Shown here: positions 3-30,644 of the stretch, in pieces
How the letters are laid out: every line of letters begins with the position of its first letter
Numbering within the stretch: position 1 is the first letter of the stretch
Assembly (NCBI GenBank): GCA_028282005.1
Contig: JANQIV010000089.1
Location: forward strand, 1 to 64,000
Reading direction: 5' to 3'
Length of the DNA stretch: 64,000 nucleotides
Source of the DNA: Melioribacteraceae bacterium
GTDB lineage: Bacteria > Bacteroidota > Ignavibacteria > Ignavibacteriales > Melioribacteraceae
The notes under the pieces: generated by a model
What the model was told of the DNA's origin: nothing
What the model saw: the letters and a program-made list of their open reading frames with translations, nothing else
Databases searched by the model: none
Program-made: the position numbers and the translations under genes

Positions 3-1559
3 CGTAGTTATATCCCGATTTTTATTCATGATAATTACAGAGGGCGCCTTTGGCAGTATCGCGATGTCACTTTACAAAGGCAAGCCCAAGTAGAGGTCAA
101 AAGGCTCAAAGCATTTTATGAACAGCTATTGAGTGACTTACCTGGGCAAATAGCTGTTCTTACCAATGACCTAAAATATATTTACCTGAATCCCGCTAGT
201 GTTGGTAATGATGAAATACGTGAATGGCTTATTGGTAAAGACGATTTAGAATATTGTGAATACAGGAATATTGATAAAACCGTTGCTCTTGGCAGAATGA
301 CCAAACTCAATAAAGTAAAAGAAAAAAAGAGAGCAATAAAATTTGAAGAAAAGATGGTTATGCCCAACGGTCAAATAAATTATTTTATCAGGGAGATTTC
401 CCCGATTATTAATGAACGTGGAGAGGTTACACAGCTTCTTGCTTACGGTGTAGATATAACTCAAAGAAAAAATGCTGAGATAGGCCTTGAAAAATCACAG
501 CAGCAGCTTCAGTCTGTTTTGGAAACAGTTGGAGAAGGAATAATAACAATAAATACTGACAGCAAGATAGTAATGATTAACAAAGAGGTTGAAGACATTT
601 GGGGGTACAAAAGGGAAGAACTTATTGGTCAAGATATCTCAATGCTCATGCCCCATAAATATAGAGAAATGCACCACCACGGAATGAACAGATACCTTTC
701 AACAAAAAAATCGCATGTGCTAAATCAAAAACTTGAACTTGAAGGTATGCGGAAGAATGGTACTGTTTTCCCTTTGGAAATAACAATTCAAGAAACAAAA
801 ATTGGTGAGGAATTATTTTTTACAGCAGCGATGCACGATATCACCGAGCTTAGAGTTTTATTAAGCAAACTGGAAAGCTCAAATAAATCGTTAACTGAAT
901 TTGCTTACATCGCGTCGCACGATTTGAGAGAACCGTTAAGAAAAATTTCATCTTTTGGAAGTTTACTCGAAGCTTCACTCGAAAATAAGATTGATTCAGA
1001 TGACAAAGAAAATCTTGATTTTATGATTGACGGTGCACAAAGAATGCAGCGAATGATTGATGATCTTCTTTCTTATTCAAAAATTACTAAGCCGGTTAAT
1101 GAGCATTTCAAAATAAGTTTAGATGAAGTAATAGATGAGATTACTGATTTTGAATTGTTTCAGGCAATAAAGGAAAATGATGCCGAGATTGTAATCGAAA
1201 ATGAACTTGGAAATTTATTTGGCGAGAAAACCCAACTGAAACAAGTTTTTCAAAACTTGATTTTTAATGCGATCAAATACAAAAAAGCTGAAGATAAACC
1301 GGTAATTAAAATACGGTCAAAATTAGAACCGGGTAAGAAAATTTTTGAAGTTGAAGATAACGGTCTGGGCATTGATAAAAAATATCATAAACAAGTTTTT
1401 GACATGTTTAAAAGGCTCCATTCGAAAGACGAAATCTCCGGTAGCGGAATAGGTTTATCAGTATGCAAAAAAATTGTAGAATTGTACGGTGGAACTATAG
1501 CCATAGAATCTGAAGTTGGCAGAGGCTCTACTTTTATTGTCTCATTTCCATTTAATTAA
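3..1559 (+). CDS. PAS-domain sensor histidine kinase (5' end outside window)
   Basis: The frame is open to the left edge of the window, so this is the C-terminal 518 residues of a longer protein. A TTG at 129 is not a credible start, because the upstream codons encode the end of a PAS domain (YRGRLWQYRDVT). Two more PAS domains follow (about residues 43-155 and 165-290). The second has the FixL-like MLMPHKYREMHHHG stretch, which might, but need not, bind haem. The kinase core has the H-box SHDLREPL with His306 (nt 918-920), N-box NLIFNAIKYK near 420, G1 EDNGLGI and G2 GSGIGLSV. No membrane segment is visible in this part, so it is probably cytoplasmic. The next gene is a stand-alone receiver, a likely phosphoacceptor. 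Signal unknown. Confidence 0.9.
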   Translation, partial: RSYIPIFIHDNYRGRLWQYRDVTLQRQAQVEVKRLKAFYEQLLSDLPGQIAVLTNDLKYIYLNPASVGNDEIREWLIGKDDLEYCEYRNIDKTVALGRMTKLNKVKEKKRAIKFEEKMVMPNGQINYFIREISPIINERGEVTQLLAYGVDITQRKNAEIGLEKSQQQLQSVLETVGEGIITINTDSKIVMINKEVEDIWGYKREELIGQDISMLMPHKYREMHHHGMNRYLSTKKSHVLNQKLELEGMRKNGTVFPLEITIQETKIGEELFFTAAMHDITELRVLLSKLESSNKSLTEFAYIASHDLREPLRKISSFGSLLEASLENKIDSDDKENLDFMIDGAQRMQRMIDDLLSYSKITKPVNEHFKISLDEVIDEITDFELFQAIKENDAEIVIENELGNLFGEKTQLKQVFQNLIFNAIKYKKAEDKPVIKIRSKLEPGKKIFEVEDNGLGIDKKYHKQVFDMFKRLHSKDEISGSGIGLSVCKKIVELYGGTIAIESEVGRGSTFIVSFPFN

Positions 1560-1578: not shown

Positions 1579-1980
1579 ATGAAAGTTGATAAAGAAAAAA
1601 TCAAAAATATACTTATAGTTGAAGATGATTTGGGTGACCAAAAGCTGATAAAAATTTCACTTAAAAAGATTAGTGAAGATTTTGCTTTGACAATTATTTC
1701 TGATGGCGAGGAAGCATTGAATTTTGTCAACGATAGCGAAAAAATGAATTTGATAAACATGGTAATTTTAGATTTGAACCTGCCGAAGGTAAGTGGATTT
1801 GATTTATTATTTCATCTTAAAAAAAATAATTTACTGGATAAAATTTATACTGTAATATTTAGTACGTCCAGTTTGGAGAGCAATATAAATAGGGAAGAAT
1901 TAAAACTTGCCGATAAGTTTTACACTAAACCCTCTACTCTTCAGGATTTTATTAACATCTTTAAAGAAATGTTTTCATAA
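1579..1980 (+). CDS. single-domain response regulator (Rcp1-like)
   Basis: The 133-residue protein is only a receiver domain. It has the acidic pair EDD near the N-terminus, the phosphoacceptor Asp65 in LDLNLPKVSG, a Ser/Thr switch in FSTSS and Lys in TKPS. There is no output domain, so it must act by binding a partner or passing phosphate on. It starts 19 nt after the PAS kinase and 14 nt before a receiver-kinase hybrid, in one tandem. The family (CheY/Rcp1 type) commonly pairs with PAS or phytochrome kinases. The partner assignment is inferred from adjacency. Confidence 0.9.
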   Translation: MKVDKEKIKNILIVEDDLGDQKLIKISLKKISEDFALTIISDGEEALNFVNDSEKMNLINMVILDLNLPKVSGFDLLFHLKKNNLLDKIYTVIFSTSSLESNINREELKLADKFYTKPSTLQDFINIFKEMFS

Positions 1981-1994
1981 AAAGAAGAGCATGT

Positions 1995-3101
1995 ATGGAT
2001 ACTAATCAAATAAATATTCTTATCTGTGATGATGACAAAGCTGATGTAAAGTTATTTAAGAATTACTTGTCAAAAATTTCCGGCAAAAATTATTATATAT
2101 CAGAAGCACATAACGAAAGTCAGATTGAAAACTTTATCAATTCAAATGAAAGTTTCCACTTAATCTTTTTAGATTATTCAATGCCGGGTAAAAATGGTTT
2201 GGAATGGTTACAGGAAATAGTTGAAAAACAAATTGCGCCTGTAATAATGTTGACGGGAGTTGGCGATGAAGAGACTGCGGTTGAAGCAATGAAAATAGGT
2301 GCGATTGATTACATTCCCAAAGATAAATTGAATAAATACGAATTAGAAAAAACAATCAACAATGCGATTGAACGTTGGAGTCTTGAACAAGAAAGAAATA
2401 CACTTTTGGGAATCGCTGCTCATGAATTAAGGAATCCGATTACAACAATTATGGGTTACACACAAATATTGAGTTCTTACGGTAATATTGAAAAAGAAAA
2501 AGTCAAAGAGATTTATGAGACAATAAACGAAAGATCTGAACACTTACTCGCAATAATTAATAGACTGCTCGATATTTCACGAATAGAAAAAGGGTCTGTA
2601 AAATTAGAAAAAATAGAAATGGATTTTGTAGATTTTATCAAAGGCAAAGTTAAACATTTTTTGCTGAGAGCTGAATCAAAAAAAATAGCAATTGAATTTA
2701 GCACGTCTTTAGACTCTCTTGAATTTCTATTTGATCCTGTACGCTTTGATGAAGTTGTTTCAAACTTGCTTGATAATGCGATAAAATATTCTCCTGAAAA
2801 TTCGAAAGTTTTAGTTGATGTTTCCAAACAAGACGGCAACATTATTTTATCTGTTGCTGATAACGGCCAGGGTATAAAATCCGAAGAATTAAAATATCTT
2901 TTTGATTTATTCTCCAATGTAAAAATTAGTTCCAAACCTACAGGGGGAGAAAGCTCTACCGGTTTGGGCTTGGCAATTGTCAAAAAAATAGTAAAGCTGC
3001 ATGATGGCGACATTTCTGTGGAAAGCGAAGTAGAGAAAGGAACAAAATTTATAATTTCGTTGCCTGTGAAAAATAAGAAACTCTCCCGCACTACCCATTA
3101 A
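1995..3101 (+). CDS. receiver-histidine kinase hybrid
   Basis: The 368-residue soluble protein has an N-terminal receiver (phosphoacceptor Asp60 in FLDYSMPGKNG, Lys in IPKDK) joined to a HisKA/HATPase core. The core shows AAHELRNPI with His143, N-box NLLDNAIKYS, G1 VADNGQGI and G2 STGLGLAIVKK. The receiver precedes the kinase, the reverse of classic hybrids, so receiver phosphorylation may gate the kinase. It is the third gene in the signalling tandem. No sensor or membrane segment is present, so the input is probably phosphate from the upstream kinase. Confidence 0.9.
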   Translation: MDTNQINILICDDDKADVKLFKNYLSKISGKNYYISEAHNESQIENFINSNESFHLIFLDYSMPGKNGLEWLQEIVEKQIAPVIMLTGVGDEETAVEAMKIGAIDYIPKDKLNKYELEKTINNAIERWSLEQERNTLLGIAAHELRNPITTIMGYTQILSSYGNIEKEKVKEIYETINERSEHLLAIINRLLDISRIEKGSVKLEKIEMDFVDFIKGKVKHFLLRAESKKIAIEFSTSLDSLEFLFDPVRFDEVVSNLLDNAIKYSPENSKVLVDVSKQDGNIILSVADNGQGIKSEELKYLFDLFSNVKISSKPTGGESSTGLGLAIVKKIVKLHDGDISVESEVEKGTKFIISLPVKNKKLSRTTH

Positions 3102-3214: not shown

Positions 3215-4363
3215 ATGGAAATAAAAGAAAATAGAAAAAACATTCTTTTAGTTGATGATGAAAAAAGCATTATCGATATGTACGGAATGGCATTCGAAAT
3301 GGAAAATTTCAATTGTACAAAAACTACTTCCGTTACACAGGCAATTCAAGAAATTAACAAGAACAAGTTTGACGCAATAATTTCGGATATAAATATGCCG
3401 GAGTTGAACGGATATTCCTTCAGAATCAATTTGTTGAACAACGAAAAAACTGCAAATATCCCATTCATTTTTTTGACTTCGAAAGATGATTATAATTCTA
3501 CAATGAAAGGCTATGATCTTTCTGCGGATGAATATATTTCAAAAACAACGAACCCAACATTAGTTGTTAGGAAAGTAAAGTCAATTCTTGAAAGAGCTCG
3601 CAAAGAAAGCAAACAAGTTGTTGCTGAGATTGTGAATTCTGTAAAAGAAACCAATGAAGAATTGATTGAAATGACTCCCCCTTTGATTGAAGGAATTAAA
3701 ATAAATCATCTTCATTTACCTTTCATGGATATACCCGGTGGTGATTTTATTGATTACATAAAAATTAATGAAGAAAATACAGCTGTTGTTCTTTGTGATA
3801 CTCAAGGAAAAAAATGGAATGCGTGGTTGGTAGGTTTTGCATTATTAAGTTATGTGCGTAGTATAATAAGGACGCAATTTCAACTATCCGCTTCGAATGA
3901 TCCTGCTCAAATTTTGGACAAGATAAATAAGTTTATCTATAATGACGAAAAACTTTCAACATTCTTTTCATCTATTTCCGTAGTAGTTATTAACAGTAAG
4001 ACAAAAGAGATTAATTACTGCGGGGCCGGTGATTTACCTCTACTATTATTATCCGGTAACACGGTCAAAGAATATCAATCTGAAGGATTGGTGGCAGGTA
4101 TAACAGAAGAAGGCGGCTACACGAATATTAAAATCCCTTTCAAAAATGGTGATACAATTTTGCTGATTACCGACGGGGTAACAGATATTGACATTAATGA
4201 AAATGAAAAACTTGGATTTGAGAACTTTATAAAACTATTTGCTTCAGTTGCGGACTCGCATGACCTCTTAGTTACATTAAAACAAAACCTCGCAAAAACA
4301 GCAATATCCGGTTTTACGGATGACCTTACAATAATTGAAATAAAAAACGAAGAAGGAGAATAA
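3215..4363 (+). CDS. receiver-SpoIIE/PP2C serine phosphatase (RsbU-type)
   Basis: The protein has 382 residues. I take the ATG at 3215 (MEIKENRKNILLVDDE) over an upstream TTG at 3194, because the receiver fold starts directly after it. The receiver spans about 1-125 (Asp58 in ISDINMPELNG). The C-terminal half is a SpoIIE-type PPM phosphatase with metal-binding acids in GGDFIDYI, LCDTQGK, LITDGVTD and FTDDLTI. Family members dephosphorylate STAS-domain anti-anti-sigma proteins in response to receiver phosphorylation. A STAS gene lies 1.5 kb downstream at 5904, a probable substrate. The glycosyltransferase gene starts 1 nt after the stop, which ties the switch to polysaccharide synthesis. Confidence 0.9.
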   Translation: MEIKENRKNILLVDDEKSIIDMYGMAFEMENFNCTKTTSVTQAIQEINKNKFDAIISDINMPELNGYSFRINLLNNEKTANIPFIFLTSKDDYNSTMKGYDLSADEYISKTTNPTLVVRKVKSILERARKESKQVVAEIVNSVKETNEELIEMTPPLIEGIKINHLHLPFMDIPGGDFIDYIKINEENTAVVLCDTQGKKWNAWLVGFALLSYVRSIIRTQFQLSASNDPAQILDKINKFIYNDEKLSTFFSSISVVVINSKTKEINYCGAGDLPLLLLSGNTVKEYQSEGLVAGITEEGGYTNIKIPFKNGDTILLITDGVTDIDINENEKLGFENFIKLFASVADSHDLLVTLKQNLAKTAISGFTDDLTIIEIKNEEGE

Positions 4364-4364
4364 A

Positions 4365-5774
4365 ATGAATTTAGAAATAATTTTCTTCCTGGCGATTGCC
4401 ACAGTTATTTATGCTTATTTCGGTTACGGAATTCTAATTGTCGTACTTAATAAAATACCGTTTATAAAGAAAATAATTCCTCAACCCAAAAATGCTATTC
4501 CAACTAAGGTCAATAGTGACAGTAGTTTGCCTAAAGTGAGCTTGATTATATCAGCCAGCGGGGAAAGCGCAAAAACTATTCAAGAGAAAATAGACAATAT
4601 TGAAAATCTCAAATACCCGTCTGATAAGCTGGAAGTATTTTTCGCTGTTGCATACGATGATAATAAAGTGGACGAAACAATTGAAGAGTATTATAAATTA
4701 CATCACCCCGTTGTTGATTTAAATCTGAACCCTGTTGAAGAAAGCGCGTTCGTTTATTTTTACAACACTGATAAAATTGATAAAACCGATACCGTATCAC
4801 TAGGTGTTTTGGAAAAGCAATTAACCCGCTCAAGTTATTTCAGTGATCAAATTAGGACAGACATTTACGAAAGATTAAAATCAATTCAACAGAAAAATAA
4901 TTATAAGTTCGAATATCACGTCACTAAAGACATTGTCCGCAAAGGCAAAATATCCCAGGTAAACCGTACAGTAAAAAAGGCTGAGGGTGATATAGTAGTT
5001 TTCTCGGATGCAAATACATTGTTCAATAGTGAATCCATTTTAAATCTTGTCAAACATTTTAAAGATGAAAGCGTTGGCTGTGTAGCCGGCGAGAAAAGAG
5101 TTAAAAAAGGAATTAACTCGACAAGCGGAGAAAGTGAAGGGCTTTACTGGAAATATGAATCGTTTCTTAAAAAGATGGATTCTAAACTCTATTCAGCAGT
5201 TGGTGCCGCAGGTGAAATTTATGCTGTGCGCAGAGAGCTATTAGAAAATGGTATAAACGAAAATGCTATCATTGAAGATTTTGTTTTGTCCATGAAAATT
5301 GCGCGGAAAGGATATAAAATAAAATACGAGCCAAACGCTTATGCCGAAGAAGAACCTACAGTTAAACTTGAAGATGAATTCAAGCGGAAAAAGAGAATTA
5401 TAGCCGGGGGTTTTCAATCTATAGTTTGGTTGTTTGACTTATTAAATCCCTTTAAGTACGGTGTGCTAACCTTTCAATACTTTTCACATAGAGTTCTGCG
5501 ATGGGCGGCGGTACCTTTTTTATTACCGCTAATTTTAGTTACAAACTTCATGTTGCTCGATAGTGGTTTATTTATCTATCACTTGACGTTGGCTGCTCAA
5601 ATATTCTTTTACCTATTGGCTTTGCTTGGGTTTTTCTTTGAAAAGAAACATAAAAAAGTAAAGCTCTTTAACATCAGTTTGTACTTTGTGTTGATGAACG
5701 TTGCTGCGTATTTCGGATTTGTAAAATTTGTTACAGGCAGCCAAAGTGTTATTTGGGAAAGGGTAAACAGGTAA
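4365..5774 (+). CDS. membrane-bound family 2 glycosyltransferase
   Basis: The 469-residue protein has an N-terminal membrane segment (about 5-30), a cytoplasmic GT-A domain and three C-terminal membrane segments (about 370-460). Nucleotide-sugar binding is supported by VSLIISASGES, the acidic metal site FSDANTLF (Asp215) and the acceptor-side IIEDFVLSMK. A basic stretch, FKRKKRIIAG, replaces the QxxRW of synthases. About 85 residues (105-190) separate the first beta strands from the DxD-like site, clearly longer than usual. The gene is translationally coupled to the phosphatase, with AAGGAG just before its ATG. Sugar and polymer are unknown. Confidence 0.85.
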   Translation: MNLEIIFFLAIATVIYAYFGYGILIVVLNKIPFIKKIIPQPKNAIPTKVNSDSSLPKVSLIISASGESAKTIQEKIDNIENLKYPSDKLEVFFAVAYDDNKVDETIEEYYKLHHPVVDLNLNPVEESAFVYFYNTDKIDKTDTVSLGVLEKQLTRSSYFSDQIRTDIYERLKSIQQKNNYKFEYHVTKDIVRKGKISQVNRTVKKAEGDIVVFSDANTLFNSESILNLVKHFKDESVGCVAGEKRVKKGINSTSGESEGLYWKYESFLKKMDSKLYSAVGAAGEIYAVRRELLENGINENAIIEDFVLSMKIARKGYKIKYEPNAYAEEEPTVKLEDEFKRKKRIIAGGFQSIVWLFDLLNPFKYGVLTFQYFSHRVLRWAAVPFLLPLILVTNFMLLDSGLFIYHLTLAAQIFFYLLALLGFFFEKKHKKVKLFNISLYFVLMNVAAYFGFVKFVTGSQSVIWERVNR

Positions 5775-5794
5775 AACTTAATTTTCTAAAAATG

Positions 5795-5804
5795 TACCGC
5801 TTAT
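5795..5804 (+). promoter_or_regulatory. shared upstream motif, degenerate copy (TACCGCTTAT)
   Basis: TACCGCTTAT lies 99 nt before the STAS gene and lacks one A of the TAACCGCTTATC core seen at 3145 and 11413. The CCACT half is not preserved, so this copy is weaker than the other two. Confidence 0.3.
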
Positions 5805-5903
5805 TCCAATTATTAATCCATTTATCTTAAACCGAATCGAAAACGCAAATAACAGTATTATCATTGAATCAGAAATTTTCAAAAATAAAAAACGGAGTAA
5901 AAA

Positions 5904-6242
5904 ATGAATTACACAGTAACCAAAAGAAATAATATAACAATCATTAAAATCAATTTGTCCCAAGCAACTAGAGAACATTCTAAAGAATTCAAGTTATTTC
6001 TAGTGGAACTTATTCAACAAGAAAAAGCAAAGAAAATAATTATCGATTTTGAACCTGTTTACTATGTTGACAGTTCATTCCTCGGAAGTTTGGTTGGCGG
6101 ATTAAAAGAAAGCACAAATCTTAAAGGTGATATCAAAGTTATGAATCTTAATCCCGCTGTTAAATCATTATTTGAAATCACAAGGCTTTATAAAATCTTT
6201 GAAATATTTACCGACGTTGAAGACGCGGTATTAAGTTTTTAA
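5904..6242 (+). CDS. STAS-domain anti-sigma factor antagonist
   Basis: The 112-residue single-domain STAS protein resembles SpoIIAA/RsbV. The beta strand IIIDFEPVYYVDSSFLG carries the DSS motif (Asp56-Ser57-Ser58) where the regulatory phosphoserine sits in the family. In the known switch, a kinase/anti-sigma phosphorylates this Ser and a PP2C phosphatase such as the one at 3215 removes the phosphate. No RsbW-type kinase or sigma-B-type sigma is encoded in this window, so that partner must be elsewhere or the output must differ. It lies directly upstream of the sugar transferase fusion (25-nt gap), so it may regulate the polysaccharide pathway. An AAACGGAG-like ribosome site precedes the ATG. 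Confidence 0.88.
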   Translation: MNYTVTKRNNITIIKINLSQATREHSKEFKLFLVELIQQEKAKKIIIDFEPVYYVDSSFLGSLVGGLKESTNLKGDIKVMNLNPAVKSLFEITRLYKIFEIFTDVEDAVLSF

Positions 6243-6267
6243 TAAAAAATTTACAGGGAGAATTATC

Positions 6268-8055
6268 ATGAAAGGTTATGTATTAGCAGGCGGAAGAGGA
6301 AAAAGGTTTGAACCTTTTACTAAAGAAAACAATAAAGTTATGATGGATTTCTGGGAAAGGCCTTTATTGTGGTATTCGCTAAATCTTCTTCAATCTCACG
6401 GTGTAAAGGAAGTTGCTATAAATGCCGCGCATATGCCGGAACAGATTGATAAATACGTTAACTATGAATTACATAGTGAACTCAATATTAATCTTACTTT
6501 GGAAAGCGAACATTACGGAACAGCCGGCACTATAAAACGTACTCCTTCATTTTTTAACGATCATGTTGCGTTGATACCTGGAGATGTTATCACTACTATT
6601 GACCTTTCCGAAATGTACAATAATCATTACAACAATGATGCTATAGTAACGCTGGCTCTTCACCCAAATTATTTGGCAAAGAATAAAACACGCCCGCAAG
6701 TAAATAAAATTACAGACAGCGATATGTTTCATTGTTTTCGTAAGAAAATGAGTGGTGTAATGATTGTCAGGCAGGATATTCTTGATTTAATTCCAAAGAA
6801 GACGAATATGAATCTTCTTGACGAATTACTACCTATGATGCTTGATTATAAAATTCAAATTAATGCGTTTAGTTCTAAATCAGGTTTTTATAACATAGAT
6901 GACTGGAGTGATTATTATAAAGCTACACTTGATATGTTCAATCACCCGGAGCTGCATGACCGAAGTAAAATTGTAAAAATGAATAACAATATCTATCATC
7001 ATGTAAATGCAAAGTTTTCAAAACAGGTTCTTAAAAATGATTTTCAAAGATTGTACTTTGGCGAAAATGTTTCAGTTGAAAACAAATGTAAGCTTAAAGG
7101 CGATGTTTATATAGGTAGTTTTTCCAAACTTAATGAAGATGCACGATTAACTGATTCGGTCGTTGGAAGCAATACAATTCTTGGGAAAGGATTAAATCTT
7201 AATAATGATTTGGTAAAGGACAAATATCTTTATTCCAATAAAAATGAAGTGGCTGTTTATGTTGACGACGAAAATCTTCTTAAAGAAAATGATAGCAAAA
7301 CATTCGGGGAATCTTTAAACGAATTATTAATTTCATTCACTGATAAATTTGTTGCAGCAGTTGCTTTATTGTGTTTATCACCATTGTTTGCGCTGGTTGC
7401 TTTGCTTATCAAATTGGAATCCCCCGGTCCGGTGTTTTATGTATCCAGCAGAGTGTTATCTCCTCGTCACGAAAGGAAAGGAAAAAAGTGGTACCAATTC
7501 AAAGGTGGGTCTAACATAAAATACTATGTTTTTAGAACCATGTACGTTAATGCTGATAAGATGGTGAAAAAACTTAATAACAAATATGAGACAGGCCCAT
7601 TCGTAAAAATAGAAAATGACCCGAGAGTAACAAAAATAGGAAGATTACTTCGCAAAACATCAATTGATGAACTTCCGTTATTCTGGAATGTGTTAGTTGG
7701 CAAGATGAGTCTTGTCGGTATTTGGGCTTTGCCTACTTATGAAGCAGAACACCTCGCGAACAAAGGGCTGCAGTCAACTGTAAACAATAGCAGGCAAATA
7801 GACTTAAGCGAAACCGCTCGATTAAGATTTGATGGGAAATTGGGATTAGCCGGTTTTTGGCAATCAAGAGGAAGATCAAATTTAACAGCCGAAGAAAGAG
7901 CAATTCACGATTCTTTTCAAGCAGTTTTAACAAATCAAAAAAGCAGTGACGCTAAATTCATGGGAGAGTATTATAAATTCAAATCCTATGTGGGTTACTG
8001 GCGAATACTTATTGAAACTTTCTTTTCTGTAGTTAAAAGAACGGGAGCAATATAA
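6268..8055 (+). CDS. sugar nucleotidyltransferase-phosphoglycosyl transferase fusion
   Basis: The 595-residue protein has two enzymes. Residues 1-230 are an NDP-sugar pyrophosphorylase (LAGGRGKRFEPFT at the nucleotide site, PGDVITT as the metal strand). Residues about 250-320 form a short left-handed beta-helix. From about 355 it is a bacterial sugar transferase (PF02397 type) with one membrane helix, a basic linker and the catalytic Asp467-Glu468 in SIDELPLFWNVL, plus MSLVG. Such transferases load the first sugar phosphate onto undecaprenyl phosphate. The fusion would make the activated sugar and transfer it at the membrane. AGGGAG precedes the ATG, and the next gene overlaps by 1 nt. The sugar cannot be told from sequence. 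Confidence 0.88.
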   Translation: MKGYVLAGGRGKRFEPFTKENNKVMMDFWERPLLWYSLNLLQSHGVKEVAINAAHMPEQIDKYVNYELHSELNINLTLESEHYGTAGTIKRTPSFFNDHVALIPGDVITTIDLSEMYNNHYNNDAIVTLALHPNYLAKNKTRPQVNKITDSDMFHCFRKKMSGVMIVRQDILDLIPKKTNMNLLDELLPMMLDYKIQINAFSSKSGFYNIDDWSDYYKATLDMFNHPELHDRSKIVKMNNNIYHHVNAKFSKQVLKNDFQRLYFGENVSVENKCKLKGDVYIGSFSKLNEDARLTDSVVGSNTILGKGLNLNNDLVKDKYLYSNKNEVAVYVDDENLLKENDSKTFGESLNELLISFTDKFVAAVALLCLSPLFALVALLIKLESPGPVFYVSSRVLSPRHERKGKKWYQFKGGSNIKYYVFRTMYVNADKMVKKLNNKYETGPFVKIENDPRVTKIGRLLRKTSIDELPLFWNVLVGKMSLVGIWALPTYEAEHLANKGLQSTVNNSRQIDLSETARLRFDGKLGLAGFWQSRGRSNLTAEERAIHDSFQAVLTNQKSSDAKFMGEYYKFKSYVGYWRILIETFFSVVKRTGAI

Positions 8056-8741
8056 TGTATAGGCAGCAATACATAAGATACGTTATAATTCTGTTTGTTG
8101 TAATTAGCCTGGAGATATTCTCCAGTTCAGGAATTGAAAAACAATTCGGTGATGACTCGGTCAAGGTTAAATTACAAAGATGCATTGAACTGGCACTGGA
8201 TTATTATCCTGATCATAAAGTTTATGAACTGTATTTAAAAACCGCCGAGGAAGAATTGAGCCAGACAAAATGGTCGTGGCTAAATTCGGTTACCTTAAAC
8301 TGGAGATATTATCCTGCAAGTGAGGATAAATCTCAAAATGAAATTTTGCCTTCTTTGGGAGTCGGACTTTCTGTTAACATTGGAAGTATACTTACAACGC
8401 CAAGCAAAGTAACAGAAGCAGAGCAAAGTGTATTGATTGCAAAGAACAGCATTGTTTCTAAAAGGAATTACCTAATTGCAGAAGTTAAAAGAAGATTTTT
8501 TAGATATGTTCAAAATTTGGAAATGTTAAATGTTCATTCCGTTAGCCTTGACAACGCGGAACTGATGTATGAACTGGTTGCCTACAAATACGAAAATGGT
8601 GAAGTTGGGTTGGAAGAATACACCAAATATTCAGGACTGTTTCAGGATGCAAAAGAAAATTTTGTGAAGAGCCGGGGTGATTACATGTGGGCAAAGAGCT
8701 CCCTTGAAGAATTAACAGGCTACGATATGGAGGCGCTTTAA
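8055..8741 (+). CDS. half-size TolC/outer membrane efflux-like protein
   Basis: The 228-residue protein has a signal peptide (hydrophobic about 8-25) and one TolC-type repeat: CIELALDYYPDHKVYEL helix, a beta-like segment around LNSVTLNW, a second amphipathic strand GVGLSVNIGS, then long helices to the C-terminus. TolC family proteins usually have two such repeats and about 400-480 residues. This one holds a single unit, so more subunits would be needed for a barrel. It overlaps the fusion gene by 1 nt and abuts the Wzc-like gene. It may take the place of the outer-membrane exporter Wza, which is not found here. Confidence 0.7.
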   Translation: MYRQQYIRYVIILFVVISLEIFSSSGIEKQFGDDSVKVKLQRCIELALDYYPDHKVYELYLKTAEEELSQTKWSWLNSVTLNWRYYPASEDKSQNEILPSLGVGLSVNIGSILTTPSKVTEAEQSVLIAKNSIVSKRNYLIAEVKRRFFRYVQNLEMLNVHSVSLDNAELMYELVAYKYENGEVGLEEYTKYSGLFQDAKENFVKSRGDYMWAKSSLEELTGYDMEAL

Positions 8742-10997
8742 ATGGATTTGATAAATTTTGTCCGCGTACTTTTAAAGAAGAAAAAGCTGCTAATTATTAT
8801 TCCGATAATTGCAGTTGTTGCATCATTCATTTTAACGATGAACTTAAAAAACTCATACAAGTCAATTGCAAAAATTTCTGCGGGAATAACTGATGAAAAT
8901 CAAATAACGATTGAAGGCGAAGTTGATTTAAGGCCTTATGTAGTTCAAAATAAGTTTAGCAACTTAATAGAATTAGTTAAATCAAAAAAAGTGGTTGATC
9001 TTGTTTCCTATAAAGTAATGTTGCACGATATTGAAAACACAAATAAGTTCAGGCCTTTCTCAAAACTATTCTCCGAACTTGATTCAAGTGCAATAAATTA
9101 CATTAAAGATGTGCTTAATGACAAATATGAAAACATGCAGGAATTACTTAATTCCGATGAAGGTGAAAAAGGAATAATAAAATTAATTAAAAGTATGGCA
9201 TACGATTATAAATCTATTCTTAAAAAACTAAATGTTTATCGAATAGGTGGTAGTGATTATATCGAAATAACATTCGAATCCGAGAGTGCGTATTTATCCG
9301 CGTTCATTGTGAATGCTGTGTGTAATGAGTTTATACGATTTTATGATTTATCCAATCAAATCAAAAGTGATAAAAATGTTTCTTTCTTTGAAGAGCTAGC
9401 CAATCAAAAAAAGGCAGAGCTTGACTCTCTTGTAAACCGGTTGAAAAATTTTAAGGTGAACAACCAGGTTATAAATCTTTATGAACAGACTAAAACACTT
9501 GTAATCCAGATGAAAGATTTGGAAGTGTTGAGAGAAAAAGAAAAGAAAAATATACCTTCTCTAGAAGAAGCCATTAATGAAATTAACTCGAAGCTTGGCG
9601 ACAAAACCAAACTTTATGTTGAGGCTGACCTTCAGCCGTTTCAAAAAAATATTATAGAAAAAAGAAAGAAATTAAAGAACATTCGCAAGCAATACATTGC
9701 ATCAGGAAAGTATAACCAGGCTGTGGAAGATACCCTTAGAAAATTAAAAGATGAACTCAGCGGACTTATAAAAAATACATCTGACGCGTTGCTGGTAGAT
9801 CCCAACGTTTCCAAAAAGGAACTTGTTTCTAAACGTTTGAAATACCAGTTAGAAAAAGAACTTGCAGAAGAGGCGGTTAAATCCTACGACAGGGAGATCA
9901 GCAGGCTTAGGAATCAGGTTGAAGTTTATGCACCGCTTGAAGCAACCAATAATGCTTATGAGAGAGAAATTAGTGTTGCGGCTGAAGCTTATCTTGTGCT
10001 ACTGAATAAATTAAGTTTCGCTAAGTTTAACTCTGTAAGCGCAGGTAACGGGATAAAGAAAATGGAATCGGGGCAGGCGCCTGATAAACCTCTCTCTTCA
10101 AAGAAAATGCTGCTGGTAATAATGGCGGGTTTTGTAAGTTTTGTTTTAACAGTCGTTCTTATTTTTATTCTTGAATACATTGACTTGACCATTAAAACGC
10201 CTCACAGGTTTTTATCAATGGCGAAAACTAATTTATTAGGATACTTATCCAAATTTGAAGGTGAAACAATTAATCTAAAAGAAATTTTCTCCTCGCACGA
10301 AAAAACCGGACAGTCTGAAATTTTCACAAACCTTTTGAAAGAACTTAGATTCAACTTGAGCGAATCGTTAAATGGAAGCAAAAAGCTTTTGTTAACCAGT
10401 CCCGGCGAAAAAGAAGGCAAAACCATAATAGGAATTTCACTTGCTTACGCCATGGCAAACGTTGGCAAAAAAGTTTTGCTGGTTGATACAAATTTTCGAA
10501 ACAATGAATTGACAAAAATATTTTCAGCTAAAAATTCACTTGCCGGTTTTATCAAAGATGAAGAAGACATTGAAAGTGCGGTAACCAAAACAGAAATAGA
10601 GAACATAGATATAATTGGTTCGGCAAATGGCTTTGCTTCTCCGTTTGAAATTGCCGGGAGTGAAAAATTTATTGATAAAGTAAATCAACTTGGAAATCAT
10701 TATGATTACATCTTTTTAGAAGGTCCTTCGTTTACGAAGTATTCTGATTCCAAGGAATTGATGAATGTTGCCGATAAAATTGTGCCGGTGTTTTCAGCGG
10801 ACTCAACTTTGGTTGAAGCTGATAAAAATATTCTGCGACAATTGGAAAGTCGTGAGGATCAATATATTGGGTCGATAATAAACAAAGTGCGGCTTGAAAA
10901 CATTGAAGGCGCTTATGGTGAAATTCCAAAGAAAAGAGGCTTTATTAGACGCAGTGTGAAAAAACTTCTTCGCAGAAATCTTGCAAGCGCCAAATAA
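8742..10997 (+). CDS. Wzc-like chain-length regulator with BY-kinase-type ATPase domain
   Basis: The 751-residue protein has a Wzz-type N-terminus (first membrane helix about 16-35), a long periplasmic coiled-coil region (about 205-420), a second membrane helix (about 455-478) and a cytoplasmic P-loop domain (about 520-740). The P-loop region shows SPGEKEGKTIIG near 553, VLLVDTNFR (Walker A') and YDYIFLEGPSF (Walker B). The B motif has Glu where the family usually has Asp, and the A' motif has Asn at a usual acidic position. The C-terminus is basic (KKLLRRNLASAK) and lacks the tyrosine cluster that such kinases autophosphorylate. It is therefore clearly a polysaccharide co-polymerase, while kinase activity is uncertain. 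Confidence 0.88.
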   Translation: MDLINFVRVLLKKKKLLIIIPIIAVVASFILTMNLKNSYKSIAKISAGITDENQITIEGEVDLRPYVVQNKFSNLIELVKSKKVVDLVSYKVMLHDIENTNKFRPFSKLFSELDSSAINYIKDVLNDKYENMQELLNSDEGEKGIIKLIKSMAYDYKSILKKLNVYRIGGSDYIEITFESESAYLSAFIVNAVCNEFIRFYDLSNQIKSDKNVSFFEELANQKKAELDSLVNRLKNFKVNNQVINLYEQTKTLVIQMKDLEVLREKEKKNIPSLEEAINEINSKLGDKTKLYVEADLQPFQKNIIEKRKKLKNIRKQYIASGKYNQAVEDTLRKLKDELSGLIKNTSDALLVDPNVSKKELVSKRLKYQLEKELAEEAVKSYDREISRLRNQVEVYAPLEATNNAYEREISVAAEAYLVLLNKLSFAKFNSVSAGNGIKKMESGQAPDKPLSSKKMLLVIMAGFVSFVLTVVLIFILEYIDLTIKTPHRFLSMAKTNLLGYLSKFEGETINLKEIFSSHEKTGQSEIFTNLLKELRFNLSESLNGSKKLLLTSPGEKEGKTIIGISLAYAMANVGKKVLLVDTNFRNNELTKIFSAKNSLAGFIKDEEDIESAVTKTEIENIDIIGSANGFASPFEIAGSEKFIDKVNQLGNHYDYIFLEGPSFTKYSDSKELMNVADKIVPVFSADSTLVEADKNILRQLESREDQYIGSIINKVRLENIEGAYGEIPKKRGFIRRSVKKLLRRNLASAK

Positions 10998-11489: not shown

Positions 11490-12269
11490 ATGAAAACAAG
11501 AAATCCTAAAAACAGAGCAGACTTAAAAATAAAAAGAAATGATTACGTTCTTGAAGTAGGCGGTGGTCATAATCCTCACAGAAGATCAAATGTAGTGGTG
11601 GATAAATATGCTGACAGTAACTATCACAGAAGCGGCGATCTAATAGTGAGAAATAATCAAAAATTTATGGAAGCAGATGGCGAAAACTTACCGTTCGATA
11701 AAAATACTTTTGATTATGTTATCTGCAACCAGGTGCTTGAGCATGTTGAAAATCCTGAAAGATTCTTAAAAGAACAATTCAGGGTAGCTAAACAAGGTTT
11801 CATAGAAACTCCATCTTTGATAGGTGAATACCTCTTTCCGAAAAAATCTCACAAATGGGTAATCCTTGAACTAGAGAATAAGCTTGTTCTCTATCCAAAA
11901 GAAAAAATGAATTTTAATTCGGTGGTAGATTTTGGCGATATGTTCTTGGATTATCTTCCCACCCATTCTATAGCATACAAGTTATTGCAAAGAACTTATC
12001 CGAATTTAATAACTGTTCGATATGAGTGGAAAAACGAGATTGAATTTATAGTTGATCCTAAATCTCCTGAATTAGTGAAATATTTTACCGAGAACTGGAC
12101 GCAGGAAATGTATCATCAATTTTTTAACAGCCGTTCAAAATTAGCTGACGTAAAAGAAATGCTTTGGGCGGTAGGGAATTTGATCTCTACTTTCTCAAGA
12201 ACAATAATAAATAGAAAATTTGGATTAAGTGGTAATCTCTCAAACACAATTAAATACAAAGGAGTTTGA
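11490..12269 (+). CDS. class I SAM-dependent methyltransferase
   Basis: The 259-residue protein has the SAM-binding motif VLEVGGGHNP near residue 20, an acidic strand end VVVDKY and the Methyltransf_11 signature CNQVLEHVENPERFL near 85. The C-terminal half has no recognised domain. Small methyltransferases of this type in polysaccharide loci modify sugars or sugar nucleotides. It opens the second transcription unit of the island after a 120-nt gap. AGAGAAGAAA precedes the ATG. Confidence 0.82.
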   Translation: MKTRNPKNRADLKIKRNDYVLEVGGGHNPHRRSNVVVDKYADSNYHRSGDLIVRNNQKFMEADGENLPFDKNTFDYVICNQVLEHVENPERFLKEQFRVAKQGFIETPSLIGEYLFPKKSHKWVILELENKLVLYPKEKMNFNSVVDFGDMFLDYLPTHSIAYKLLQRTYPNLITVRYEWKNEIEFIVDPKSPELVKYFTENWTQEMYHQFFNSRSKLADVKEMLWAVGNLISTFSRTIINRKFGLSGNLSNTIKYKGV

Positions 12270-12271
12270 AC

Positions 12272-13468
12272 ATGATTTTAGAAATAATTTTTTACGCACT
12301 TTTTATATCATCTGCCCTTTTTCTGGTTATGCCGATTATAAATAGTGTTGCAGCATACATAGGGTCGGGTAATATAGAACCCACAGACAATTTTGAATAT
12401 GATTACGGGATAATTATTACTGCGTATAAACAGGAAGAGTTTGTTTATCCTTTGATTAATTCTCTAAACAGGCAAAGTTATACTAACTTTCATATTTATG
12501 TTGTAGCTGATCTTTGTTCGCTTGACGAAAATAAGATTACTGATAATGTTACGGTTTTAAATCCTTCCCTACCGCTTAACTCAAAAGTAAAATCAATTTT
12601 ATATGCAATTGATAATTTTCAATATAAGCATGATGCTGCGGTAATATTTGATCCGGATAACCTTGCACACCCGGAATTTATGTATGAAATAAACAAGTAT
12701 TTCCAAAACGGGTTTAAGATTGTGCAAGGAAAGCGTACAGCTAAAAATCTTAACACAGGCATAGCTGCGCTGGATGCTTTGCATGAAATGTTTTATAACG
12801 TAACACAAAGAGACGGTACAACAAAATTAGGTTCTTCAGCTGTAATTGCCGGTTCTGGTATGGCTGTTGACTTAGAATTATACAAACGAACATTGGATTC
12901 AAATCTTATAATTAATTCTATTAACAAAGTCATCTCAGCAGAAGATAAAATCTTGCAATATGAATCGGTTAATTTGAATAAAGTAATTGCTTACAACAGA
13001 AATGCAATTGTTTATGATGAAAAATCTGATAATAGAAAACAACTTCAAAAACAAAGATCAAGATGGCACAGCTCTTATTTTGAATATGCTAAACTTGGCT
13101 GGAAATTGTTTGTAAGAGGAATAACAAGGAGAAACTTCAATCAATTTTATTTTGGCTTAAATGTTATCACTCCCCCTTTGTTTATAACTCTATTGCTGAA
13201 TTCCTTTTTGATGATATTATTCTTTTTAACCGGGCATGTCAAATTTGCTATCGCCGAACTATCGCTTTTGATCACTTTTACATTAAATATGTTTTTCATC
13301 ATGATTTATGAGAAAGCACCAAAGGCAATGTGGGAAGCACTTTTTCATGTTCCGTTTTTTATAATTATTCAGATAAGATCATTGTTCAACATGAAGAAAG
13401 CAAAGAGTGATTTTCTTGTAACTAAGCATTCAAAAGTTTATTCACTTAAAGATTTGATAGGTAACTAA
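12272..13468 (+). CDS. membrane family 2 glycosyltransferase (processive type)
   Basis: The protein has 398 residues. I choose ATG 12272 because AAAGGAG (12258-12264) sits 7 nt before it; a TTG two codons earlier is less likely. It has an N-terminal membrane helix (about 3-25), a GT-A domain (YGIIITAYKQEEFV, metal site VIFDPDN with Asp127) and the QRSRW motif near 260 that marks processive synthases. Two or three C-terminal membrane helices follow (about 295-370). The start is just past the methyltransferase stop and the stop overlaps the flippase start by 1 nt. It probably extends or builds the repeat unit on the cytoplasmic face. Confidence 0.85.
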   Translation: MILEIIFYALFISSALFLVMPIINSVAAYIGSGNIEPTDNFEYDYGIIITAYKQEEFVYPLINSLNRQSYTNFHIYVVADLCSLDENKITDNVTVLNPSLPLNSKVKSILYAIDNFQYKHDAAVIFDPDNLAHPEFMYEINKYFQNGFKIVQGKRTAKNLNTGIAALDALHEMFYNVTQRDGTTKLGSSAVIAGSGMAVDLELYKRTLDSNLIINSINKVISAEDKILQYESVNLNKVIAYNRNAIVYDEKSDNRKQLQKQRSRWHSSYFEYAKLGWKLFVRGITRRNFNQFYFGLNVITPPLFITLLLNSFLMILFFLTGHVKFAIAELSLLITFTLNMFFIMIYEKAPKAMWEALFHVPFFIIIQIRSLFNMKKAKSDFLVTKHSKVYSLKDLIGN

Positions 13469-14832
13469 TGTTATTCAAAAATAAATATTGGATACAATCA
13501 AGTGCGTACACAATGTTATCGAGAATATTAAGTGTACTATTTGGTTTCGGAAGTTTTTATATGTTGGTAAGAATTTTTCCTAAAGATGAATTCGGCGCTT
13601 GGGTTTTATACATATCTGTTGCTGCTTTTGTTGAAATAACAAGAAACGGGATTTTGCAGAATTCTTTTGTAAAATTTTCAGCTTCGAAAAACAAAGAAGA
13701 GTTTTCTGAAATTTTTTATTCGTCGGCAGTTTTAAATATCGGCATATCATTATTCTCGATTGTTGTTTTGTTTTTTGCTTCACCTTTTTTGAGTGCTATT
13801 TGGTCACTTCCGCAGTTAAAAGAACTTATCAATTTATATATGATTATGACGCTTGTATTAATACCGTTTTCTCAATTCGGTTTTGTACAACAAGCCAGGA
13901 TGGACTTTAAAGGCATCTTCATTTCGACTGCAGTTAGACAAGGTTTATTTTTTGTTTATGTGCTTCTTGCATTTCTTATGAACCATAAATTGGAATTGAA
14001 TGAATTGATTTATGTCCAAATAATATCTTCGTCAATCGCTTCATTTGTTTCTTTCCTTTATGCAAGAACTCACATCGATTTTGAAATATCACCAAACTTC
14101 GACTGGGTAAAGAAACTGTTTGCTTACGGAAAATATGTTTTCGGCACGAGTATCGGATCAACAATTTTTAATACTATTGATCAAATGATGCTGGGAATCT
14201 TCGCCGGACCTGCTTCGGTAGCTCTTTATAATGCTTCCATGCGAATTGTTAATATAATTGAAGTCCCGATAAATTCTTTAGCTGCAATTGTTCTTCCGCA
14301 AAGTACTGTCCGGGTAGAAAAAAATGGGTTAAGCGAAGCAAAGTATTTATATGAAAAATCAGTTGGAGTTGTGCTTGCTATAGTATTGCCTGTAATAATA
14401 ATAGGGATTCTATTTCCAAAAACTATTTTGCTAATTATTGCTGGCGCAGAATATTCAGAAGCGTCTACTACTCTTTCGGTAATATGTGTTTACAGTTTTT
14501 TCTTTCCTTTCGGCAGACAATTCGGAATTATCCTTGATTCAATAGGTAAAGCTAAAGTGAATTTTGCTTCGATCGTTTTTATGATTTCAGTTAACATAAT
14601 TGCCAATTACGTTTTTATAAATCATTTCGGATTAATTGGTGCCGCTTTTGGGACACTGACTGCTACGGGTATGACTTTTCTTTTGAATCAATACCTGTTG
14701 TGGAAAATTGTAAACGTGAATGTGTTGAATGTCTTTGCTTATGCCGTAAGGTTCTATCAAGATATACTTAACAAAATGTCGTCAGTTTTTATGAAAAGAT
14801 TTAAAGCAATAGGAGAACAAAATGTTTATTAA
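13468..14832 (+). CDS. wzx: Wzx-type polysaccharide flippase (MOP superfamily)
   Basis: The 454-residue integral membrane protein has about 12 hydrophobic segments and the start typical of the family (a pair of helices with RILSVLFGFGSFYMLVRIFPKDEFGAW). The centre has FGTSIGSTIFNTIDQMMLG, matching the middle repeat of MOP flippases. It should move lipid-linked repeat units to the periplasmic face for the Wzy protein at 17737. Its start overlaps the glycosyltransferase stop by 1 nt, and its end overlaps the next gene by 11 nt. Confidence 0.88.
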   Translation: MLFKNKYWIQSSAYTMLSRILSVLFGFGSFYMLVRIFPKDEFGAWVLYISVAAFVEITRNGILQNSFVKFSASKNKEEFSEIFYSSAVLNIGISLFSIVVLFFASPFLSAIWSLPQLKELINLYMIMTLVLIPFSQFGFVQQARMDFKGIFISTAVRQGLFFVYVLLAFLMNHKLELNELIYVQIISSSIASFVSFLYARTHIDFEISPNFDWVKKLFAYGKYVFGTSIGSTIFNTIDQMMLGIFAGPASVALYNASMRIVNIIEVPINSLAAIVLPQSTVRVEKNGLSEAKYLYEKSVGVVLAIVLPVIIIGILFPKTILLIIAGAEYSEASTTLSVICVYSFFFPFGRQFGIILDSIGKAKVNFASIVFMISVNIIANYVFINHFGLIGAAFGTLTATGMTFLLNQYLLWKIVNVNVLNVFAYAVRFYQDILNKMSSVFMKRFKAIGEQNVY

Positions 14833-16030
14833 AAATAAAATTAAAAATAGAGATATAATTATAGTTGGGCTTCAACCCTGGGATACTTCGATAGGTAGTA
14901 ACTGTAAAAATATTGCAGAAGAATTCTCGAAACAGAACAGAGTTTTGTATGTCAACTATGCTTTGGACAGGATTACCTCGTTAAGAGAAAAAGATTCGGA
15001 AATTGTAAAAGCCCGCAAAAAAGTGTTAAACAGTGAAGCTGAAGATTTAATAAAGATCAAAGAAAATCTTTGGGTTTTTACCCCCAAGGTAATGCTAGAA
15101 TCTATTAACAAATTATCTGCAAGGTTTGTCTTTGATTTGTTTAATAAGAGAAACAATCGATTACTGGCAAACGAAATAAAAAGAGCCGCATCAATATTAA
15201 GTTTCTCAGATTTTATCCTTTTTAATGACAACGACATTTTCCGCGGATTTTATTTGAAAGAATATTTAAACCCTTCAGTTTATGTTTATTACTCCAGAGA
15301 TTACTTGCTTGCGGTAGATTATTGGAAACAACACGGTTCATCTTTAGAACCGCAATTAATGTCAAAAGCGGATTTGGTTTTAGCCAATTCAATTTTCTTA
15401 AAAGAACTTGCAGTAAAATATAATCAAAATAGTTTTGATGTTGGCCAAGGATGTGATTTTGAAGGGTTTGATAAATATGAAAATCAAAAACCCAATAATG
15501 AAAAACCTGTTATCGGCTACGTGGGATATTTAACCAGTTTGAGACTTGATGTAGAACTTCTTGAAAAACTTGCTCAGCTAAAAAAGGAATGGGATTTTGT
15601 TTTCGTTGGCCCAAAAGATAAAGACTTCGAAAGCAGCTCGTTAAATCAAATGGACAATGTTTCATTTCTCGGACAAAAACCTGTATCTGATTTGCCTAAG
15701 TATATAAGCAGCTTTGATGTGTGTATCAATCCGCAAATAGTAAACGAGGTAACAATTGGCAACTATCCAAGGAAGATTGATGAATATCTTTATATGGGTA
15801 AGCCTACCGTTGCTACTAAAACAAAAGCTATGGAAGCGTTTAAAGATTACGTTTACCTGGCTGAAAATGTAGATGACTACATTGTTTTTATATCGGACGC
15901 ATTAAAAAATGATAGTGAAAAACTTCGTATAAAAAGAAAGCTTTTTGCATCACAGCATACATGGAAAAATTCTGTTGGAAAAATTTATTCGGCAATAAAC
16001 TTAGTAAGCTATTTGCAAGAAGCAGCATAG
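14822..16030 (+). CDS. GT4-like (GT-B) glycosyltransferase
   Basis: The 402-residue soluble protein has the N-terminal donor/acceptor fold opening IIIVGLQPWDTSIGSN. The C-terminal half reads IGYVGYLTSLRLDVELLEKL, DFVFVGPKD, VSFLGQKPVSDLPKYISSFDVCINP and PRKIDEYLYMGKPTVAT, the usual E-x7-E-type nucleotide-sugar region of GT-B enzymes. ATAGGAGAACAAA precedes the ATG inside the flippase gene (11-nt overlap). Sugar unknown. Confidence 0.86.
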   Translation: MFIKNKIKNRDIIIVGLQPWDTSIGSNCKNIAEEFSKQNRVLYVNYALDRITSLREKDSEIVKARKKVLNSEAEDLIKIKENLWVFTPKVMLESINKLSARFVFDLFNKRNNRLLANEIKRAASILSFSDFILFNDNDIFRGFYLKEYLNPSVYVYYSRDYLLAVDYWKQHGSSLEPQLMSKADLVLANSIFLKELAVKYNQNSFDVGQGCDFEGFDKYENQKPNNEKPVIGYVGYLTSLRLDVELLEKLAQLKKEWDFVFVGPKDKDFESSSLNQMDNVSFLGQKPVSDLPKYISSFDVCINPQIVNEVTIGNYPRKIDEYLYMGKPTVATKTKAMEAFKDYVYLAENVDDYIVFISDALKNDSEKLRIKRKLFASQHTWKNSVGKIYSAINLVSYLQEAA

Positions 16031-16038
16031 GTGGAATA

Positions 16039-16671
16039 ATGAAAAGAATAAAAATAATAGAGAATAATCCAAAACTAAAAAAGATAGTTCACTTGCTTTT
16101 AGTAAAGAAACATCAAGCAGTACCAAGGTTGTGGGTCAAATTAGTATTAAACAATCTTCTTCACAAAAGAAAAGGGGCTATAATAAAAAGACGCAGCAGA
16201 ATGGATTTGTTTCCGTTTAACGAATTTAGCATCGGTAACAAAAGTATTGTTGAAGATTTTGTAACTGTAAATAATGGTGTTGGCCCAGTTAATATTGGAC
16301 GCAAATCAATTATCGGAATAGGAAGCGTTTTAATTGGGCCCGTAAATATAGGTAATGATGTTATGCTTGCACAAAACGTTGTAATATCCGGACTAAACCA
16401 CAAATACGAAAATGTTTTCAAACCTATTTCCGAGCAGGGTGTTGAAACAAAACAAACTATTATTAAATCGGGTTCGTGGATAGGAGCTAACTCAGTTATT
16501 GTTCCCGGTGTTAAGATAGGGCAAAATTCAATAGTTGCGGCTGGCAGCGTTGTCACAAAAGATGTTCCCGATTTTAGTGTTGTAGTGGGCAACCCTGCCA
16601 GAGTGGTTAAAGAATATGATTCGTCTTCCGGCAAATGGGAAAAAGTAAACAAAGTAAATAAGGTAGCTTAA
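16039..16671 (+). CDS. hexapeptide-repeat (left-handed beta-helix) acyltransferase
   Basis: The protein has 210 residues from ATG 16039, with AGGTGG before it and an 8-nt gap after the preceding stop. The open frame runs back into the previous gene, but that part is unlikely to be translated. About residues 60-200 are hexapeptide turns (VNIGRKSIIGIGSVLIG, GSWIGANSVIVPGVKIG, IVAAGSVVTKDV) with a loop GLNHKYENV that carries the probable catalytic His. The end VVGNPARVVKEY is typical of WcaF/Maa-type O-acetyltransferases. It likely acetylates a sugar of the exopolysaccharide. Confidence 0.85.
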   Translation: MKRIKIIENNPKLKKIVHLLLVKKHQAVPRLWVKLVLNNLLHKRKGAIIKRRSRMDLFPFNEFSIGNKSIVEDFVTVNNGVGPVNIGRKSIIGIGSVLIGPVNIGNDVMLAQNVVISGLNHKYENVFKPISEQGVETKQTIIKSGSWIGANSVIVPGVKIGQNSIVAAGSVVTKDVPDFSVVVGNPARVVKEYDSSSGKWEKVNKVNKVA

Positions 16672-16672
16672 G

Positions 16673-16792
16673 ATGCTTAACAAAAATTATGTAACCAACA
16701 AGATTTCAAAAGATAAATTAATTGAAAAGGCAGTAATTGTTTTATGCTTTGTTGTCTGCTACGCATTTTTTTTCAAAATAGTATTTTTTTAG
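16673..16792 (+). CDS. 39-residue single-helix membrane peptide
   Basis: This short reading frame fills the whole gap between the acyltransferase stop and the next glycosyltransferase. It starts with an ATG 1 nt after the upstream stop, with AAGG in the end of the acyltransferase gene. The peptide has a polar, basic first half (MLNKNYVTNKISKDK) and one hydrophobic segment with two Cys (VIVLCFVVCYAFFFKIVFF). It stops 9 nt before the next ATG. The tight fit argues for a real coupled gene. Function is unknown; it might assist the membrane complex. Confidence 0.55.
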   Translation: MLNKNYVTNKISKDKLIEKAVIVLCFVVCYAFFFKIVFF

Positions 16793-16801
16793 GAAGGTAA
16801 T

Positions 16802-30065: not shown

Positions 30066-30644
30066 TTGAGAAAATACAAAGACTTTTCTGACCTGGAATT
30101 GATCAATAAAATTAAGAAGTACGATTCTAGGGCCCTTGAAGAACTCTATGTCAGGTACTCACCTATTTTATTTACATTAATTAAAAAAATCGCGCCAAAT
30201 AAAGAAACGGCTGAAAAAGTATTAGTTGATGTATTTGAAATTATTTGGAAAAAGGCTGTTAATTATGATTTTGAAACAAGCTCGGTTTATACCTGGATAA
30301 TTAATTTAGCGAGAAATAAAATTGTTGACGTTGTAAAAAGAAGCAGAAATGCCTTCGGAGTATCAAAAGCTTATAACGATGAATATGAAGACTATTTTAT
30401 AATCCCGGAATTATCTCCGGAAATTGATAATCTCGAACTTGCAACAGCAGAAAACATCAAAGATAAAGTTGAATCTTCACTTGAAAAATTGAGTGACACA
30501 CAAAAGTATGTAATTCACTTAGCTTACTATGAAGGTTATAATCTCAATGAAATTTCGGAAAAATTAAATATCCCGATTGAGACAGTACGCAGTAAAATAA
30601 TGGCGTCATTGAATACATTAAAAGATAATTTGGTTTCAGGATAA
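30066..30644 (+). CDS. ECF-type RNA polymerase sigma factor
   Basis: The 192-residue protein has sigma region 2 (about 10-90, including LYVRYSPILFTLI and YTWIINLARNKIVDVVKR) and region 4 (about 135-190, LAYYEGYNLNEISEKLNIP, a helix-turn-helix). The start is a TTG at 30066 with AGGA 5 nt upstream; no closer ATG exists. The stop is directly followed by the ATG of a RskA-type anti-sigma factor, the standard layout of ECF sigma/anti-sigma pairs. Autoregulation is expected but its promoter is not identified. Confidence 0.88.
   Translation: MRKYKDFSDLELINKIKKYDSRALEELYVRYSPILFTLIKKIAPNKETAEKVLVDVFEIIWKKAVNYDFETSSVYTWIINLARNKIVDVVKRSRNAFGVSKAYNDEYEDYFIIPELSPEIDNLELATAENIKDKVESSLEKLSDTQKYVIHLAYYEGYNLNEISEKLNIPIETVRSKIMASLNTLKDNLVSG

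Follow-up and report, generated by a model that had tools for sequence, protein, structure and literature searches.

In Vibrio fischeri, SypE, a single protein with kinase, receiver and phosphatase parts, controls the phosphorylation of SypA, and unphosphorylated SypA promotes biofilm formation below the level of transcription (PMC4517449, PMC10120452). In Nostoc punctiforme, a separate phosphatase, STAS protein and RsbW-type kinase (HmpU, HmpV and HmpW) are involved in both polysaccharide production and motility (PMC8256260). In Pseudomonas aeruginosa, the interaction of the STAS protein HsbA with the enzyme HsbD is governed by the phosphorylation of HsbA (PMC5085249), which provides a precedent for direct binding of an enzyme by a STAS protein. 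The cassette described here bears on what the STAS protein acts on in SypA- and HmpV-type switches. Searches of the open-access literature turned up no account of such a cassette in Ignavibacteriota, Bacteroidota or Calditrichota.

The stretch of DNA that we analysed (the window, 64,000 nucleotides) is the start of contig C194 in the fragmented genome assembly (G000; 4.09 Mb, 271 contigs) of a Melioribacteraceae bacterium. Every gene that we accept as genuine between 129 and 20068 is on the plus strand:

129 to 1559, plus strand: PAS-PAS histidine kinase (Pfam HATPase_c 1.5e-27, PAS, HisKA)
1579 to 1980, plus strand: single-domain response regulator (Pfam Response_reg 2.9e-12)
1995 to 3101, plus strand: receiver-histidine kinase (Pfam Response_reg 1.8e-19, HisKA, HATPase_c 3.1e-29)
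3194 or 3215 to 4363, plus strand: receiver-SpoIIE (PP2C) phosphatase, the proposed phosphatase of the phosphorylated STAS protein (Pfam SpoIIE 4e-28, Response_reg 4.6e-21)
4365 to 5774, plus strand: membrane family-2 glycosyltransferase (Pfam Glyco_trans_2_3 6.6e-16; synteny)
5904 to 6242, plus strand: STAS protein with YVDSSFLG, predicted phospho-acceptor Ser57 (Pfam STAS 1.3e-13)
6243 to 6267, plus strand: empty kinase site (25 bases here; a gene for an RsbW-like kinase of about 190 aa in 10 of 12 homologous loci)
6268 to 8055, plus strand: nucleotidyltransferase/left-handed-helix/priming glycosylphosphotransferase fusion (Pfam Bac_transf 8.1e-34, NTP_transferase 2.3e-16; alignment)
8055 to 8741, plus strand: outer-membrane-channel-like protein of the OEP family (Pfam OEP 3.4e-20)
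8742 to 10997, plus strand: Wzc-like chain-length/ATPase protein (Pfam AAA_31 7.8e-11, Wzz 3.1e-07)
12266 to 20068, plus strand: remaining polysaccharide genes, namely glycosyltransferases, flippase-like and polymerase/ligase-like membrane proteins and an acyltransferase-like protein (open reading frames)

The 5′ end of the first histidine kinase gene is cut by the contig start, its open frame running on to the contig edge. The roles of the genes from 12266 to 20068 were read from sequence without a Pfam scan, and their homologues keep the same order in relatives. Spacing from the phosphatase gene onward is tight (1, 129 and 25 bases, followed by a 1-base overlap). Promoter-like sites numbered 28 in our scan against 20.6 (sd 3.9) in shuffled sequences, and terminator-like sites resembled those of shuffles; we base nothing on either scan. 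Farther along the window there are two ECF-type sigma genes (30066–30644 and 48936–49460), each followed by a gene for a likely membrane-bound regulator.

SypE/SypA is the nearest studied case. As in V. fischeri, a single-domain STAS protein with an equivalent serine (phosphorylated in SypA) is encoded in a polysaccharide locus; the receiver-controlled PP2C phosphatase is fed by histidine kinases, as we propose it to be here; and the output lies below transcription, with no known sigma factor, as we also propose for our locus. The STAS gene shows the gene-order hallmark of the SypE/SypA type, lying inside a polysaccharide locus together with a receiver-PP2C regulator. The two systems differ in gene order and belong to different phyla, and the functions united in SypE fall here to a receiver-phosphatase and a kinase encoded by separate genes, the kinase gene being absent from the window. 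HmpU/HmpV/HmpW resemble the cassette in having separate components, but the hmp locus is cyanobacterial and the description consulted mentions no receiver-phosphatase inside a Wzx/Wzy-type biosynthetic operon (PMC8256260). The likeness to HsbR/HsbA/HsbD of P. aeruginosa lies in the binding of an enzyme by a STAS protein depending on serine phosphorylation (PMC5085249), which is what we propose for our locus. However, HsbD is a diguanylate cyclase, whereas the linked genes here encode polysaccharide enzymes, and because the genome of the window has a single GGDEF match, c-di-GMP is not favoured as the output. With RsbU/RsbV/RsbW/sigma-B of Bacillus subtilis the cassette shares the STAS, kinase and PP2C families and the kinase fold, but our search of the genome of the window turned up no sigma-B/F-like factor.

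Pfam searches and alignments bear out the first-pass annotation in its description of a receiver-SpoIIE phosphatase with metal-binding acids and a DSS-containing STAS protein interleaved with glycosyltransferases. The STAS protein is of the RsbV/SpoIIAA-type single-domain kind, with the serine directly after an aspartate (D56-S57). Ser57 aligns with the phosphoserine of the family and is invariant across 17 aligned STAS proteins; the closest homologues within the order are 36–51% identical. The phosphatase (382 aa if translated from the ATG at 3215, the start chosen in the first-pass annotation, or 389 aa from the TTG at 3194) has the SpoIIE domain and metal-binding aspartates of a SpoIIE/RsbU-type PP2C enzyme: all four aspartate motifs (GGD, CD.QG, TDG and DD) are present in the alignment, and the receiver residues DD, D, T and K are intact. 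One of these motifs is unusual, as the GD[VI]MGK that is otherwise nearly strict among relatives reads CDTQGK. In the equivalent stretch of B. subtilis SpoIIE, D628 and G629 are predicted to coordinate the M2 metal, and G631 is a possible further ligand (PMC5468089). Since CDTQGK retains the aspartate and the second glycine, we do not call the enzyme dead. Pfam detected no HATPase domain in it. In relatives with phosphatases of 520 aa, a fused kinase was considered and rejected as an explanation of the extra length, which is a second receiver domain.

Evidence that these regulators belong to the polysaccharide operon comes from conserved linkage. The fusion enzyme was found in 6 of 146 genomes of the order, and in all six the STAS gene lies directly upstream of it, save for an intervening kinase gene. 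A scan of one genome per species (84,980 species) yielded 10 loci with the full fusion (L110–L119), four of which (L112, L114, L115 and L116) are records that the order search had already returned. Adding the window and a locus in G027 brings the number of distinct loci to 12, of which ten belong to Ignavibacteriota or kin, one to Calditrichota (L118) and one to Bacteroidetes (L119). Counted among the ten is L111, labelled Bacteroidetes, whose STAS and kinase proteins are nearly identical to those of L113. In all 12 loci the STAS gene lies within about 0.7 kb of the fusion enzyme, where about 0.4% would be expected per locus by chance, and the linkage clearly exceeds chance. The membrane glycosyltransferase adjoins the STAS gene in 10 of the 12. 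In most loci the genes for the receiver-phosphatase and the glycosyltransferase come before it; they are absent from L112 and L118 within the stretch read, and L111 is truncated by the contig end. These observations, along with the domains, lend support to the earlier proposal of partner-switch-type control tied to a polysaccharide operon.

The genome also contains a paralogous STAS/phosphatase pair in a second module, on contig C193 (L037, 8818–13570), encoding a PAS histidine kinase, an NtrC-type regulator, a STAS protein (DSTFLG) and a receiver(-receiver)-SpoIIE phosphatase. The same four-gene layout was present in all 14 loci of this kind that we read in other genomes of the order (L085–L090 and L092–L099), and no kinase gene was recognised next to these modules. 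Such a widespread pathway raises the question of whether the STAS and phosphatase genes of the window are passengers in the polysaccharide operon that actually serve the C193-type pathway. We consider this most improbable: the polysaccharide-linked STAS gene keeps its place in every one of the 12 loci, across three phyla, and C193-type STAS proteins group apart from the polysaccharide-linked ones, although with moderate support (83/60).

The element conspicuously missing from the window is the kinase. As the first-pass annotation stated, the window has no RsbW-like gene. It has no sigma-B/F gene either, although the two ECF-type sigma genes are present, and its locus contains the phosphatase and the STAS protein of a partner-switch module, the RsbW-type kinase being absent. 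A kinase hidden between the annotated genes was rejected, since neither gap (129 and 25 bases) leaves enough room. The annotation had gone on to argue that the STAS protein may bind an enzyme because RsbW is lacking, and this argument is not supported: a gene for a protein of about 190 aa sits between the STAS gene and the fusion enzyme in 10 of the 12 loci, missing only from the window and G027. What the window shows is a kinase lost or displaced locally; the system itself is not built without one.

Several lines of evidence identify this protein of about 190 aa as a divergent RsbW/SpoIIAB-type protein, as judged from sequence profiles and a structural model. Pfam HATPase_c_2 matches it above the threshold in two loci, L118 at 35.6 bits and L119 at 28.9 bits, and weakly in most other members. 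In the alignment, the Glu, Asn and His of the N-box (E..N..H) are invariant, and the family profile matches RsbW (6m36, 5e-5) and SpoIIAB (about 0.02) among PDB sequences. For the AlphaFold model of one member (pLDDT 89), the top Foldseek matches were SpoIIAB, RsbW and UsfX at about 1e-6. By the alignment, most members seem to have a degenerate adenine-binding G1 box, while L118 keeps its aspartate; kinase activity of the family is likely but not certain. Relatives of this kinase adjoin STAS genes at other loci of the order, and in G086 and G027 a STAS domain and a kinase are fused into a single protein of 309 aa (L103, 2991–3920; L104, 8185–9114), with no phosphatase gene recognised beside the fusions. 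Both arrangements support a direct STAS–kinase partnership. A compact phosphatase-STAS-kinase cassette also occurs in genomes of two other families, beside a GalE-like gene (G306) and an acyltransferase-like gene (G487). These findings add a divergent family of RsbW-like kinases, STAS-kinase fusions included.

Where, then, is the kinase of our bacterium? Profile searches found no member of the family of about 190 aa in the assembled genome, and it is conceivable that the cassette is a remnant, the kinase having been lost. The STAS protein would then never be phosphorylated and would be constantly active, or else idle, and the phosphatase would be left without a task. The altered phosphatase motif would agree with this idea, as would the observation that the STAS protein and phosphatase of the window are more diverged than in relatives (ratios of 1.31 and 1.24). 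Yet the excess divergence of the priming domain is at least as large (1.35), and neither gene is broken or lacks a key residue, making a remnant quite improbable. The more specific suggestion that the STAS protein decayed after the loss of the kinase was rejected: relative distances do not single out STAS and do not show relaxed constraint. We return to a working switch, probably served in trans. The genome search called for by the first-pass annotation revealed five other RsbW-like genes, three beside STAS genes (C130, C258 and C146) and two without (C33 and C95). Of these, the C33 orphan stands out: it has one single-copy counterpart each in 76 of 77 genomes of the order, and no other small RsbW-like protein of the genome matches the operon-kinase profile as well. 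On these sequence grounds it is the first candidate for the in-trans kinase, though this order-wide orphan may instead be the partner of the C193-type module. The kinase could also be hidden in an assembly gap upstream of a second copy of the operon core (C151:1–3362, L100), which encodes the fusion enzyme, OEP and Wzc proteins at 75% DNA identity. This copy begins inside the fusion gene, is cut at both contig ends and could be either a true paralogue or a contaminating relative.

The same search returned no sigma-B/F-like sigma factor in the assembled genome, so a sigma-B/F-type output is not available there. Region 3 occurs in a single sigma-70 gene, whose 289-aa frame we assign to the housekeeping factor; the other sigma-70 family genes, about 19, are ECF-like and lack it. 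The RsbV/RsbW/sigma-B cluster that the first-pass annotation named as counter-evidence is thus not there: RsbV/RsbW pairs occur at C130, C258 and C146, but sigma-B does not. A transcriptional switch might still operate if an in-trans RsbW-type kinase held an ECF or the housekeeping sigma factor and the STAS protein freed it for transcription of this operon or others. The five RsbW-like and about 19 ECF-type sigma genes, an ECF gene near the C130 STAS/RsbW cluster and the reported control of the primary sigma factor by the Chlamydia Rsb network (a title cited in PMC8256260) all speak for such a mechanism. Nevertheless we regard it as unlikely, given that no sigma-B/F-like factor was found and that no sigma gene was recognised in any homologous cassette, whereas polysaccharide enzymes are always there. 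With no sigma-B/F found in the genome, the output is best read as something else than a factor of that kind. In this respect the first-pass annotation is supported, even though its reasoning from the missing RsbW is not borne out by most relatives.

Overall, we somewhat favour a sigma-independent partner switch for polysaccharide assembly that includes the STAS protein and the receiver-SpoIIE phosphatase and whose kinase is supplied in trans. A histidine kinase would phosphorylate the receiver and so set the activity of the phosphatase, which would strip the phosphate from Ser57 of the STAS protein; an RsbW-type kinase, probably encoded elsewhere in the genome and with C33 as the first candidate to do the job of the missing gene, would restore it. 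In its unphosphorylated state, or possibly in its phosphorylated one, the STAS protein would then control polysaccharide assembly after transcription and without a sigma factor, most likely by binding the neighbouring membrane glycosyltransferase or the priming enzyme. The domains, active-site residues, linkage, kinase family of the relatives and lack of a detectable sigma-B/F are read from sequence, and from them we infer the phosphorylation cycle, the in-trans kinase and the enzyme target, the last being a guess from gene order. Against this view stand the lack of a kinase in the operon, the CDTQGK of the phosphatase and the truncation of the C151 copy by a contig end. As for the input, the earlier suggestion that the upstream histidine kinases feed the receiver is plausible here, but such kinases lie upstream in only one homologous locus (L114).

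Because the kinase gene lies right beside the STAS and phosphatase genes in most relatives, our results suggest that protein phosphorylation, instead of a stress sigma factor, switches the production of slime (exopolysaccharide); sigma-independent control of the polysaccharide is a reasonable idea. The membrane glycosyltransferase and the priming enzyme, as constant neighbours, are natural candidates for the target. With the switch tied to one set of biosynthetic genes across distant phyla, and no sigma-B/F found in the genome of the window, the list of likely targets shrinks to these two. Mirror-tree comparison gave correlations of the STAS protein with the priming domain, glycosyltransferase and Wzc of 0.96, 0.89 and 0.72 (8 loci), but over all pairs r with the priming domain was only 0.28, and the sequences are too few to name the target. 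It is a tentative possibility that, across Ignavibacteriota, Bacteroidota and Calditrichota, a conserved three-gene switch (receiver-PP2C, STAS, divergent RsbW-like kinase) exerts direct control over the priming or membrane glycosyltransferase step of a Wzx/Wzy-type exopolysaccharide operon, the target of the STAS protein being an enzyme that makes the polysaccharide.

The fusion enzyme itself shows a further peculiarity. In its nucleotidyltransferase half (6268–7300) the usual PKPM-type signature is lost and reads PFTKENNKVMM; the same stretch is changed in the C151 copy and is odd also in L117 and L118. Judging from these substitutions, the nucleotidyltransferase half may be non-catalytic in these copies.
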